From: a virus
Strand: one strand, 5' to 3'
Length of the DNA stretch: 61,578 nucleotides
IMG/VR virus record: IMGVR_UViG_3300032047_000009
Location: 1-61,578 of that record
Of the stretch, positions 35,846 to 43,998 are shown piece by piece. A program made the position numbers and the translations under genes. The notes below the pieces were generated by a model. It saw only the letters and a list, made by a program, of their open reading frames with translations. It did not search any database and was not told where the DNA came from. Numbering within the stretch: position 1 is the stretch's first letter; each line of letters begins with the position of its first letter.

Positions 35846-36087
35846 TATTTTGTGTTATATTTTTTTGTACCCTTACCGTGTCCACTTCTATTTTTCTTCC
35901 TAGATATGAATTTCTTTGCATTGTGATCATAATCTAGCCCATCTAAGTTTCTACCTTTCTTCTTAGCAGCGCGTCTAAGTCTTTGGTTTTCGGCCTTCAT
36001 TCTTCTTCTACGAGGAGTTTTTGCTGTAGCCAAATCTCTTTTAGCTTTAGCCAGTCTTGCTTTCTTACTAAGTTTCTGTTTTGCCAT
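35845..36087 (-). CDS. small, highly basic protein at start of late operon
   Basis: An 80-residue protein with about 40 percent Lys/Arg (KLSKKARLAKAKRDLATAKT then PRRRRMKAENQRLRRAAKKK). Short basic proteins of this kind occur beside tail genes in marine phages. It may condense DNA or be a ribosome- or virion-associated protein. It is the first gene of the minus-strand late block, so its upstream region (36,088-36,361) should hold the main late promoter. The stop overlaps the tail gene start. Confidence 0.55.
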   Translation of the reverse strand: MAKQKLSKKARLAKAKRDLATAKTPRRRRMKAENQRLRRAAKKKGRNLDGLDYDHNAKKFISRKKNRSGHGKGTKKYNTK

Positions 36088-36272
36088 AACCCTTATATCA
36101 CCTATTTTTAGGAGGTTTTAAACATAGGGGTTTTGTATAATACCTATACTTTACGGTACAGCTATCAATACCAAAACGACTTGTAAAAGGCCCACGGGCC
36201 GTTGTTTACCTCCATTTTGTCTAGAACTTTTAGCTTTTACCTAGGGCTTGTTATTAGTCCTTATGCTATACA

Positions 36273-36290
36273 CAGACGAGTCACGAGCAG
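36273..36290 (+). repeat. upstream copy of promoter -35 element
   Basis: CAGACGAGTCACGAGCAG is a nearly exact direct copy of the -35 region at 36298, 25 bp downstream. No TATAAT lies at the right distance from this copy, so it is more likely an extra binding site for the regulator or sigma factor than a second promoter. The same 25-bp arrangement recurs at 36683 and 36708. Confidence 0.6.
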
Positions 36291-36297
36291 AGTAGAG

Positions 36298-36326
36298 CAG
36301 ACGAGTCACGAGCATCTTTATATAAT
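36298..36326 (+). promoter_or_regulatory. early promoter P1 (CAGACG-17-TATAAT)
   Basis: The -35-like CAGACG at 36298-36303, a 17-nt spacer starting AGTCACGA, and TATAAT at 36321-36326. It lies 36 nt upstream of the 85-residue gene. It belongs to a family of nine sites with identical spacing. Confidence 0.7.
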
Positions 36327-36361
36327 ATATATAATTAATAAATAAATCTAAATAAATAATT

Positions 36362-36619
36362 ATGAAAAAAGAATCAAGTAATCCAAGTGTTAAACAAACT
36401 AAACTAACTACTAAAAGGTTTGTGATCAGAAAGAATCTAATCGGTAAGAATGTAACGATTGAATTCAAAACAAAAGAAGGTAAGACATTCAAGTATAATC
36501 ATGACAAAGTATATAGTAGTAACAAGAAAAGGTTTGAAGGTATGAACTGTTTCAAGAAGTATAAGTCATACACTGCAACAAACAATGTACCAACATTTGC
36601 AAGAGACTTCCTACTGTAG
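36362..36619 (+). CDS. small early protein, paralogue A
   Basis: An 85-residue basic protein of unknown function. Its core (KRFVIRKNLIGKNVTIEFKT then KEGKTFKYNHDKVY and FKKYKSYTATNNVPTFARD) is repeated in the next gene, so the two are tandem paralogues. The first gene of the early block is a likely host-takeover factor. It has its own promoter (P1) and a hairpin after the stop, giving an individually regulated gene. No known domain is recognised. Confidence 0.7.
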   Translation: MKKESSNPSVKQTKLTTKRFVIRKNLIGKNVTIEFKTKEGKTFKYNHDKVYSSNKKRFEGMNCFKKYKSYTATNNVPTFARDFLL

Positions 36620-36645
36620 GGAGTTTCTTTTGGGTAAAGCGAAGC

Positions 36646-36670
36646 AAAGGGGAGTGTAATGCTCCTCTTT
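36646..36670 (+). terminator. hairpin after paralogue A
   Basis: AAAGGGGAG (36646-36654) and CTCCTCTTT (36662-36670) form a 9-pair stem with one G-U pair and a 7-nt loop, followed by GTGTGTATAG. It lies 27 nt after the stop codon and probably ends or stabilises the small transcript. Confidence 0.55.
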
Positions 36671-36682
36671 GTGTGTATAGCA

Positions 36683-36700
36683 CAGACAGGTAACGAGCGA
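36683..36700 (+). repeat. upstream copy of promoter -35 element
   Basis: CAGACAGGTAACGAGCGA is a second-copy element 25 bp ahead of the P2 -35 sequence, with the same CAGAC and ACGAGC blocks. It lacks a -10 at 17 nt. It mirrors the 36273/36298 pair. Confidence 0.6.
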
Positions 36701-36707
36701 AGAATAA

Positions 36708-36736
36708 CAGACACAATACGAGCAAGTGACTATAAT
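36708..36736 (+). promoter_or_regulatory. early promoter P2 (CAGACA-17-TATAAT)
   Basis: CAGACA at 36708-36713, spacer CAATACGAGCAAGTGAC, TATAAT at 36731-36736. It is 36 nt upstream of the paralogue B start, the same distance as for P1 and paralogue A. Confidence 0.75.
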
Positions 36737-36771: not shown

Positions 36772-37005
36772 ATGAAAAATTCTATTATTAAAACAAAAAG
36801 ATTTGTAATCAGAAAATCTTTACTTGGCAAGAACTCAATTATTCAATTTACTAACAAAGAAGGTAAGTCTTTCAAGTACAATCATGATGAAGTGTACAAA
36901 GTAAACAAAAAGCATTTTGATTCTATGAAGTGTTTTGAAAAGTACAAATCATACACTGCTACTAATAACATGCCAACCTTTGCTCGAGATCTAATAATCA
37001 AATAG
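36772..37005 (+). CDS. small early protein, paralogue B
   Basis: A 77-residue protein closely related to the previous one: KTKRFVIRKSLLGKNSIIQF then NKEGKSFKYNHDEVYKVNKK and YKSYTATNNMPTFARD. The shared pieces cover nearly its full length. The duplicated unit also includes the promoter and downstream hairpin. The function is unknown; the basic character and position suggest an early host-interaction protein. Confidence 0.7.
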   Translation: MKNSIIKTKRFVIRKSLLGKNSIIQFTNKEGKSFKYNHDEVYKVNKKHFDSMKCFEKYKSYTATNNMPTFARDLIIK

Positions 37006-37088: not shown

Positions 37089-37211
37089 CTAATATACCTT
37101 ATTATACTGCCTTATGTCACCTTTTTTCAATAATCTCACAGCATCAGGCGGAGCTTTATACCTCCTAATACCTCTACTACACTTAAATAAACAATCCACC
37201 TTTGCAGACAT
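37089..37211 (-). CDS. possible 40-residue minus-strand ORF
   Basis: In the 256-nt gap between early genes, an ATG at 37211 opens a 40-codon frame (MSAKVDCLFKCSRGIRRYKA then PPDAVRLLKKGDIRQYNKVY). The composition looks protein-like. However, it points against every neighbour and would have to share sequence with P3, whose -35 covers its start codon. I list it as a weak possibility; otherwise this gap holds only the hairpin and P3. Confidence 0.25.
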   Translation of the reverse strand: MSAKVDCLFKCSRGIRRYKAPPDAVRLLKKGDIRQYNKVY

Positions 37212-37233
37212 AATACACAAGTAATTATATAAT
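37205..37233 (+). promoter_or_regulatory. early promoter P3 (CAGACA-17-TATAAT)
   Basis: CAGACA at 37205-37210, spacer TAATACACAAGTAATTA, TATAAT at 37228-37233, 28 nt ahead of the ATG at 37262. Confidence 0.75.
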
Positions 37234-37832: not shown

Positions 37833-37861
37833 CAGACATATAACAAGAGTAATAATATAAT
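37833..37861 (+). promoter_or_regulatory. early promoter P4 (CAGACA-17-TATAAT)
   Basis: CAGACA at 37833-37838, spacer TATAACAAGAGTAATAA, TATAAT at 37856-37861, only 17 nt before the next ATG. The transcript leader must be about 10 nt. Confidence 0.75.
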
Positions 37862-38981: not shown

Positions 38982-39010
38982 CAAACATAAAACGACACTA
39001 AAAATATAAT
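38982..39010 (+). promoter_or_regulatory. early promoter P5 (CAAACA-17-TATAAT)
   Basis: CAAACA at 38982-38987 (one change from CAGACA), spacer TAAAACGACACTAAAAA, TATAAT at 39005-39010, followed by ATAATAAAT. The next ATG is 34 nt away. Confidence 0.7.
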
Positions 39011-39710: not shown

Positions 39711-39739
39711 CAGACAGATAACAAACAAGTAAGTATAAT
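39711..39739 (+). promoter_or_regulatory. early promoter P6 (CAGACA-17-TATAAT)
   Basis: CAGACA at 39711-39716, spacer GATAACAAACAAGTAAG, TATAAT at 39734-39739, then ATAATAAATA. It is 16 nt before the ATG at 39756, so the leader would be about 10 nt. Confidence 0.75.
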
Positions 39740-40805: not shown

Positions 40806-41291
40806 ATGAATATATTTTATCTACATAAAGACCCAGCAGAAGCGGCTAAACTACAATACAATAAACACGTAGTAAAAATGATTTTAGAATCAGCACAAAT
40901 GTTATGTACAACACATCACGCACTTGGCAATGGACACAACGCGCCTTATAAAAAGGCTCACTTAAACCACCCTTCAACTATTTGGGTTAGAGAAAATGCT
41001 TTGCATTATGATTGGCTTTGGAACCATATGGTTGCTTTAGGACGAGAGTATACTAAACGTTACGGTAAACACCATTTGTCAATACAAAAAATGATAGACT
41101 ATGAGATGTGGTCATATCCATATAATATACCTTATAAATCATTCGAAGAACCTCCTCAGTGTATGCCTGATCAGTACAAACACAAAAGTGCTATACACGC
41201 TTATTGGCAGTATTATATTGCAGAAAAAAGTAATGTAGCTCACGAATCAGAAAATATATACAAAAGTATTCCAAGCTTTATACAGACATAA
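40806..41291 (+). CDS. conserved phage protein, possibly DNA-repair related
   Basis: A 161-residue protein beginning MNIFYLHKDPAEAAKLQYNK, then HVVKMILESAQMLCTTHH, NHPSTIWVRENALHYDWLWN and PPQCMPDQYK ending with AYWQYYIAEKSN. This is a widespread phage family. I recall annotations ranging from hypothetical to pyrimidine-dimer glycosylase-like, which I cannot confirm. The conserved His, Cys, Trp and Glu residues suggest an enzyme. It follows P7 without a leader. Confidence 0.65.
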   Translation: MNIFYLHKDPAEAAKLQYNKHVVKMILESAQMLCTTHHALGNGHNAPYKKAHLNHPSTIWVRENALHYDWLWNHMVALGREYTKRYGKHHLSIQKMIDYEMWSYPYNIPYKSFEEPPQCMPDQYKHKSAIHAYWQYYIAEKSNVAHESENIYKSIPSFIQT

Positions 41292-41311
41292 AACAAACAG
41301 AAACATATAAT
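41283..41311 (+). promoter_or_regulatory. early promoter P8 (CAGACA-17-TATAAT)
   Basis: CAGACA at 41283-41288 forms the last codons of the previous gene. The spacer is TAAAACAAACAGAAACA and TATAAT is at 41306-41311. The next ATG at 41318 lies 6 nt beyond the -10, as at P7, again predicting a leaderless message. Confidence 0.75.
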
Positions 41312-42946: not shown

Positions 42947-42975
42947 CAGACTAAAAACGACACATTTTGGATAAT
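42947..42975 (+). promoter_or_regulatory. early promoter P9 (CAGACT-17-GATAAT)
   Basis: CAGACT at 42947-42952, spacer AAAAACGACACATTTTG, GATAAT at 42970-42975. The expected start of transcription (about 42,982) is inside the next ORF, so this promoter may serve genes further downstream, such as the helix-turn-helix gene. Confidence 0.55.
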
Positions 42976-43259: not shown

Positions 43260-43364
43260 TTTTGGTTATACACGTATTGAGGGTTTAATAATCTTTGACT
43301 CAATACAAACCAAAATGTGACAATAGGGAATAAGATAATAATAATACAGGCTAATGTCACATTT
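43260..43364 (+). promoter_or_regulatory. nested inverted repeats ahead of HTH gene
   Basis: The 138-nt leader of the next gene contains TTTTGGTT (43260-43267) paired with AACCAAAA (43308-43315). Inside it lie GTATTGAG (43274-43281) and CTCAATAC (43299-43306). Then AAATGTGACA (43313-43322) pairs with TGTCACATTT (43355-43364), which covers the start codon. The two structures share three bases and so may exclude each other. This suggests an operator or an RNA switch; no T-run follows. Confidence 0.6.
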
Positions 43365-43998
43365 GAGAATGAATTTTTTATTTTCAAACAGAATAATTAC
43401 TAGAAGGTATCCTGTTTTAGATAAACCTACACATGTTTTTGATTGGGGTTGGTTTTATGAAAACGGCACTTATGAATATTATTCTCTGTTTTCGTATGAA
43501 AAATCTATTATAAGAAGTTATAGATCTTTAAAATGGCACCTTTTAGTTATAAGGTATTTAAATGATAATTTAGAAAACAAAATGTTTGAAAAAATAGCAA
43601 AACATATATCAAAAAAGAAAAATGGTTTTACAACTTTTGATATTGATGATAGCAGTTTTATTAGAATAATGAACGAAATATTGAACCATGATTTTGAGTT
43701 TGCACCTAAGAATAAAAGACGTAAAGTAATATTTAAAGATGGTTGTGGTTTAACAAAAAGTCAAAAATTAAGCATAACAGGAAAATTAATAGGAAGAAAA
43801 AATAGTGTCAATAATAGTGACCTATATGAAATAATGTTATATATTCATGATACAAGTGAAAAAATAACAATAAAAAAGCTTGCAAAAGCTTTAAATGTTT
43901 CTTCAAGAACAATACATAGAAATATGGATTTGAACTTGAAAACAGAAAAAAACCTATTAAATGAAGAATTACAACGTAGAAAACTATGTGCGTTATAA
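43354..43998 (+). CDS. helix-turn-helix regulatory protein
   Basis: A 214-residue protein. The C-terminal third is a helix-turn-helix of the type KITIKKLAKALNVSSRTIHR (residues about 170-190), a typical recognition-helix pattern. The N-terminal two thirds are beta/alpha, including THVFDWGWFYENGTYEYYSL and a basic middle (KNKRRKVIFKDGCGLTKSQ). It may be a transcription regulator or a replication initiator. It overlaps the sigma-factor gene by 38 nt, and its start codon lies inside the right arm of a 10-bp inverted repeat, suggesting self-control. Confidence 0.65.
   Translation: MSHLRMNFLFSNRIITRRYPVLDKPTHVFDWGWFYENGTYEYYSLFSYEKSIIRSYRSLKWHLLVIRYLNDNLENKMFEKIAKHISKKKNGFTTFDIDDSSFIRIMNEILNHDFEFAPKNKRRKVIFKDGCGLTKSQKLSITGKLIGRKNSVNNSDLYEIMLYIHDTSEKITIKKLAKALNVSSRTIHRNMDLNLKTEKNLLNEELQRRKLCAL

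Follow-up and report, generated by a model that had tools for sequence, protein, structure and literature searches.

The middle promoters of T4 are built around a phage-specific block, the MotA box, which replaces the −35 element and is combined with a TATAAT-like −10 element. A second well-characterized design is that of the CII and PhoB sites, in which same-strand repeats approximately 10–11 bp apart lie on one face of the DNA and are needed at every target. Here we describe a promoter class of a virus in which a long block is likewise joined to a TATAAT- or GATAAT-type −10 element, and in which two promoters, P1 and P2, carry an additional copy of that block at a fixed distance upstream. 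Judged from its sequence and its relatives, this doublet is a real, clade-restricted variant inside a strict promoter class, and it is probably a control element. A small number of literature searches returned no description of either the class or the doublet, and a term look-up in PMC8776804, which concerns the Pervagoviridae, found no use of "promoter" and none of "sigma".

The stretch of DNA analysed, hereafter the window, is the virus record IMGVR_UViG_3300032047_000009, with a length of 61,578 bases. Searches with its terminase and portal, which yielded 87 records each, retrieved phages of Flavobacterium (68), Cellulophaga (15), Tenacibaculum (2), and Maribacter (1), together with a single environmental record; given that this kinship is mostly with flavobacterial phages, the host is very likely a flavobacterium. 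Genes below position 36087 run leftward and include virion proteins, the portal, the terminase, and GroEL, while the rightward genes begin with gene 1, past a divergent region (36087–36270). This region contains a GGCCCACGGGCC hairpin, similar versions of which occur in the relatives L004 and L006 and which is absent from L005, as well as a TTTTAGCTTTTACC-like stretch common to the window and all three relatives. A reading as an RNA element was dropped, as an Rfam scan at gathering cut-offs yields only the tRNA.

Genes 1 and 2 are paralogues (Table 1), and relatives of their family are encoded in at least 372 IMG/VR stretches, the best 80 of which were used here. Neither gene has a Pfam or PHROGs match at an E value of 0.001, and gene 2 as a lone query retrieves two near-identical loci only. 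The 8-mer GTATAGCA, always preceded by T, occurs 13 times in the window compared to 2.65 times in shuffled sequences, and in two places it lies behind a GC-rich hairpin, once after gene 1 and once after gene 2. In several relatives, with L002 and L003 left out of one of the comparisons, TGTATAGCA is found just upstream of promoters of the class, often behind a hairpin. Generic scans of the window were uninformative for promoters of the sigma70 type (17 promoter-like sites against 10.2 in shuffles) and for terminators (1 terminator-like site against 0.7).

Table 1. Coordinates of the promoters, genes, and associated elements in the window
Feature	Position	Strand	Remarks
P1 upstream block copy, CAGACGAGTCACGAGC, without its own −10	36273..36288	+	layout repeated in L004 at 4905
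P1 promoter, CAGACGAGTCACGAGC and TATAAT (36321–36326)	36298..36326	+	score 18.0, window-free model
Gene 1, 85 aa, protein without assigned function; first rightward gene	36362..36619	+	44 related loci
Hairpin after gene 1 (GGGGAGT-GTAAT-GCTCCTC)	36649..36667	+	−9.7 kcal/mol for a 26-nt stretch; next to GTATAGCA at 36675
GTATAGCA copies	36675, 37041, 39687, 42930 (+); 36271 (−)		8 others
P2 upstream block copy, CAGACAGGTAACGAGC, without its own −10	36683..36698	+	layout repeated in L004 at 5332
P2 promoter, CAGACACAATACGAGC and TATAAT (36731–36736)	36708..36736	+	score 25.0, window-free model
Gene 2, 77 aa, paralogue of gene 1	36772..37005	+	53/76 identical to gene 1
Single-copy class promoter	37205..37233	+	score 20.8
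Single-copy class promoter	37833..37861	+	score 19.2
Single-copy class promoter	38982..39010	+	score 29.5
Single-copy class promoter	39711..39739	+	score 24.7
Single-copy class promoter	41283..41311	+	score 24.9
Top-scoring window promoter, upstream of the HTH and sigma genes	42947..42975	+	score 38.5
HTH protein (214 aa); may read the block or act as a partner in reading it	43354..43998	+	HTH_11, 5.4e-6
Sigma70-like factor, 252 aa	43961..44719	+	phrog_351, 4.6e-11

The initial annotation of this DNA had proposed that at both P1 and P2 a second copy of the −35 block precedes the promoter copy by exactly 25 bp and lacks a −10 element, and both statements hold in sequence and in coordinates. The blocks, of the form CAGAC-N5-ACGAGC, are separated start to start by 25 bp at each promoter; the P1 copies are identical over 17 nt, and those of P2 differ by two mismatches. 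A TATAAT −10 element, placed 18 nt after CAGAC, follows the downstream copies only, the corresponding place of the upstream copies (23 nt after the first C) being occupied by AGCAGA at P1 and AACAGA at P2. The relative L004, whose sigma factor is 74% identical to that of the window, exhibits the same layout at the corresponding promoters (4905/4930 and 5332/5357), again with a 25-bp step and again without a −10 element at the upstream copy (ATCAGA and AACAGA), so that none of the four doublets has one. A loose 16-mer with three permitted mismatches is weak on its own, with 7 matches against 3.86 expected; the significance of the doublets therefore derives from the exactness of the pairs, with zero and two mismatches, from their place before −10 boxes, and from their conservation in L004. 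Shuffled sequences, together with this conservation, make a chance repeat unlikely.

The class to which P1 and P2 belong can be defined with considerable precision. Its pattern consists of CAGAC or CAAAC followed after 18 nt by TATAAT or GATAAT, and P1 and P2 fit its extended form of CARAC, 5 nt, AC(G/A)A, 9 nt, and (G/T)ATAAT. The window contains eight such promoters between 36298 and 42947 (36.3–43.0 kb), all on the + strand, compared to a mean of 0–0.1 matches in Markov shuffles of the window, with a matrix trained without the window, four thresholds from 10 to 16, and 10 shuffles at each. The consensus, ACAAACTAAATACGA-N9-GATAATATA, derives from 87 promoters in the window, L004–L044, and L050; near-identical contigs of the window lineage were excluded from this count (L001–L003 and L045–L049) and from the matrix scan (L001–L003). 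While CARAC, ACnA, and GATAAT were imposed by the search pattern behind the consensus, positions left free are still conserved, namely, an A before the block (92%), an A at position 7 (93%), and an A after GATAAT (97%). The class is tightly associated with the gene 1 family: 56 of 62 family genes carry a class promoter, against 2 of 62 random places, under a model trained on promoters of other genes, with some of the 62 drawn from near-identical contigs and 2 of an original 64 set aside for having too little upstream DNA. The six genes without a promoter call are L005:4971, L026:4980, both of L024, and both of the near-identical L025; by eye, the motif is present at L005:4971, where the spacer is shortened by one base.

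Within this class, the doublet is a rarity. The window and related IMG/VR contigs provide 353 distinct class promoters, which remain from 387 with at least 60 nt of upstream sequence once near-identical ones are removed. A complete second copy, matching at 9 of 9 positions and located 15–46 bp upstream, is missing from 347 of these and present in six, at 25 bp in four cases, at 40 bp in one (L085), and at 16 bp in one (L074). All four 25-bp cases come from the window lineage and L004, one at P1 and one at P2 of each, and a second block at 25 bp is thus not a feature of the class as a whole. The extra copy of L085 is a short AC-rich repeat flanked by two complete promoters and that of L074 nearly abuts the promoter block; both look incidental. 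When 7 of 9 matching positions suffice, a distance of 25 bp occurs in 6 of 353 promoters, as often as 33 bp (6) and 40 bp (6), and therefore does not stand out. Pattern scans of IMG/VR that left the distance free (15–45 bp or 14–44 bp) recovered 25-bp doublets before a −10 element, within the phage group, only from the window lineage and L004, and class promoters at other distances in L082 (14 bp), L074 (16 bp), and L085 (40 bp). Contigs not recognized as belonging to the phage group were matched as well. On one of these, L080 (7012–7065, − strand), a CAAAC-type doublet of exactly 25 bp has no gene downstream and reads into the 3′ end of a convergent gene; we regard it as probably due to chance. 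The doublet is, as such, known only from the small branch formed by the window and L004. The comparison with related phages called for by the initial annotation thus gives a divided answer: L004 shares the two-copy layout, and other relatives keep the promoter without the upstream copy. This second finding is one half of a refuting condition set in the initial annotation, which further requires that the loss be without effect. Among the relatives with the promoter alone, L005 and L006 contain both gene 1-family genes behind single promoters, which indicates that the upstream copy is dispensable over evolution. In another clade (L008, L012–L015, L017, L019, and L024), a conserved element, approximately AACAAGTAAACAAA(C)TATATACTTT, immediately precedes the block at the promoter of the second gene 1-family gene; it may correspond to the upstream copy found in the window.

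A candidate reader of the block is encoded downstream of the eight promoters. The profile of the sigma70-like factor matches SigA, FliA, and RpoD chains within positions 15–139 (best E value 1.1e-9); sigma70 regions 2 to 3.0 are recognizable, and region 4 gives a weak Pfam match of 18.7 bits against a cut-off of 24.1. A gene of this kind occurs in 13 of the 23 relative records searched, which form part of a set of 44, and records without it may be fragments. The adjacent gene, for a protein with a helix-turn-helix (HTH) motif, overlaps the sigma gene by 38 nt in the window, and in 10 of 10 other sigma loci an HTH homologue overlaps the sigma gene or lies no more than about 150 nt ahead of it, 8 of the 13 sigma records having been opened as loci. 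This persistent proximity suggests that the two proteins work together. The AlphaFold model of the HTH protein (mean pLDDT 85) has no PDB match with an E value below 1, nor has that of gene 1, and a known fold for either was accordingly discarded as a candidate. The sigma and HTH genes are correlated with the promoter class within a single phage lineage, and we infer that the sigma factor, the HTH protein, or both read the promoter block.

The explanation that we favor, and to which we would give about an even chance, is that the upstream copy gives the factor that recognizes the block another place to dock, boosting or timing the first two early transcription units. Promoters of the class would be read as one block of 14–16 bp that extends over the −35 region and the spacer, plus the GATAAT or TATAAT −10 element, and their recognition would probably fall to the sigma70-like factor that the phage itself encodes, acting alone or together with the HTH protein of the adjacent gene. 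Repetition of the block 25 bp upstream at P1 and P2 would offer this reader a second place to bind, and thereby raise occupancy and promoter strength or sharpen the timing of the two units. The presumed identity of the binding protein, the presumed earliness of the genes, and a presumed activating rather than repressing effect of upstream binding are all integral to this proposal. With transcription assumed to start 7 nt after the −10 element, the proximal block covers approximately −35 to −20 and the upstream block approximately −60 to −45. In other bacteria, the polymerase alpha subunits or class I activators act at about −60 to −45. A more elaborate version, in which a self-made pair of sigma70-like and HTH proteins jointly reads the long block and one branch of the lineage has added a 25-bp amplifier at its first two promoters, is a good deal more speculative, and we offer it as a tentative extension.

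Foremost among the alternatives is that the doublet is a neutral relic without function, the block having been duplicated locally in tandem and the arrangement then carried from one of the two promoters to the other by gene duplication or conversion. The exact identity of the P1 copies, the confinement of the doublet to one small clade that excludes L005 and L006, and the paralogy of the genes behind P1 and P2 are all as such a history would have it. The pattern of substitution is not. Between the upstream 25-mers of the window and L004, 1 of 20 family-conserved positions differs compared to 14 of 30 others (Fisher p = 0.0016, in a test chosen after the sequences had been seen), and between the promoter copies the values are 2 of 20 and 16 of 26; with so similar a pattern of change, the upstream copies look as constrained as the promoter copies, in a sample of four promoters from two independent lineages on which these statistics rest. 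Moreover, the upstream flanks of P1 and P2 have suffered insertions and deletions between the window and L004, and the 25-bp step is unaltered at all four promoters. The initial annotation had reasoned that equal spacing at two places bespeaks a regulator touching both copies rather than chance; its dismissal of chance is strengthened by L004, which keeps the 25 bp at both promoters while non-conserved bases have changed. Its own caveat, that the copies might be mere by-products of the neighboring gene duplication, is answered by L005 and L006, whose two gene 1-family genes come without the doublet; a simple by-product of this kind was rejected, as gene duplication alone does not account for the doublets. 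On balance, a functionless relic appears possible but improbable.

The ancestry of the doublet can be bracketed with a tree of the sigma and HTH proteins. Under midpoint rooting, the window and L004 are sisters (support 98/97), L005 joins them at 89/91, which is below the starred level, and L006 falls outside, the four being united at 100/100. Either the doublet was gained at both promoters in the branch of the window and L004, twice or once and then copied, or it was lost from both promoters in L005 and L006. Between the window and L004, corresponding genes share 75% and 77% identity; paralogues within each share 70%, and one cross pair between the two reaches 74%; in the tree of the gene 1 family, built on 79 columns, most copies from the window, L004, L005, and L006 sit in an open fork. 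Given this cross pair and the open fork in the gene tree, the pairing of the genes between the window and L004 relies on their position and shared flanks.

It is also conceivable, if unlikely, that the doublet is an operator; P1 and P2 would then be shut off by a phage protein bound at both copies, perhaps the HTH protein or the product of gene 1 or gene 2. In the window, doublets are confined to the promoters of the two paralogues, genes 1 and 2, the other six promoters having none, and gene 1 encodes a small, lysine-rich protein. Against this, gene 1-family genes outside the clade of the window and L004 have the promoter without a complete second copy, the gene 1 model (mean pLDDT 87) has, as noted above, no match to a solved fold with an E value below 1, and the proximal copy is part of every promoter of the class, a distribution more in keeping with a factor that reads promoters than with a repressor.

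A dedicated dimeric activator that places one monomer on each copy, the example put forward in the initial annotation, is harder still to sustain, and we consider it quite improbable. It would account for the same spacing and the same orientation at four promoters. However, copies 25 bp apart are about 2.4 helical turns from each other and so on different faces of the DNA, and with 347 of 353 promoters having no complete second copy within 15–46 bp, a factor that requires two cannot serve the class; these are the two grounds for disfavoring a simple, rigid dimer bound along one face of the helix. Furthermore, no such activator emerged from the analysis. Lastly, a second promoter overlapping the first, with the upstream copy as its −35 region, is highly improbable, since the proper-distance −10 element is missing in all four doublets and a hidden second −10 is thereby rejected, even though the upstream copy keeps the conserved positions of the block and complete tandem promoters do exist in some relatives, such as L024 and L085.

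If the preferred reading of a second docking site within a phage-specific class is correct, probable flavobacterial phages possess a defined promoter system that comprises one strict motif, a sigma gene, and a partner gene, and that is found in many IMG/VR contigs. The window and L004, set against L005 and L006, would then constitute a natural test of what a second upstream block contributes. The relevance is to flavophage transcription, and its reach is modest.

Among described phages, the Elemovirus and Callevirus members of the Pervagoviridae encode a terminase and a portal homologous to those of the window, and GroEL is annotated in them and encoded in the window too. Their likeness does not extend to the promoters: the first 50 kb of each of the cultured phages elemoE and phi38:1 contain none of the window's class, and neither do those of the environmental relative MW202828. 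The sigma factor and gene 1 have no tblastn match in the annotated phage collection, and the sigma profile has none in MW202828 or elemoE in a search run without a positive control. Promoters of the flavobacterial sigmaA, for which PMC9723704 gives the consensus TAnnTTTG at −12 to −5, resemble the window's class in an AT-rich −10 region and in the probable flavobacterial host. The motif TTG-N17-21-TAnnTTTG is not enriched in the window (7 occurrences, with 30 shuffles averaging 11.4) and is absent from the 36–43 kb promoter region, and host sigmaA promoters, so defined, were rejected as the identity of the class.

As regards the two designs introduced at the outset, the HTH protein has no MotA family model among its Pfam matches, taken up to an E value of 5 with most of those above about 0.1 dropped, and no CII model matched it. 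Like the sites of lambda CII and PhoB, P1 and P2 display same-strand repeated elements around or above −35; unlike them, they have a step of 25 bp, and most promoters of their class make do with one copy, so that the CII-type arrangement of repeats one helical turn apart at every target is not that of the window's class. MotA promoters are not known to carry an additional copy of their box 25 bp upstream. In overall plan the class resembles the T4 middle promoters, with a phage block at −35 and a TATAAT-like −10 element, from which the window's class is set apart by a block that spans the −35 region and the spacer in two conserved parts and by the presence of a sigma70-like gene of the phage.
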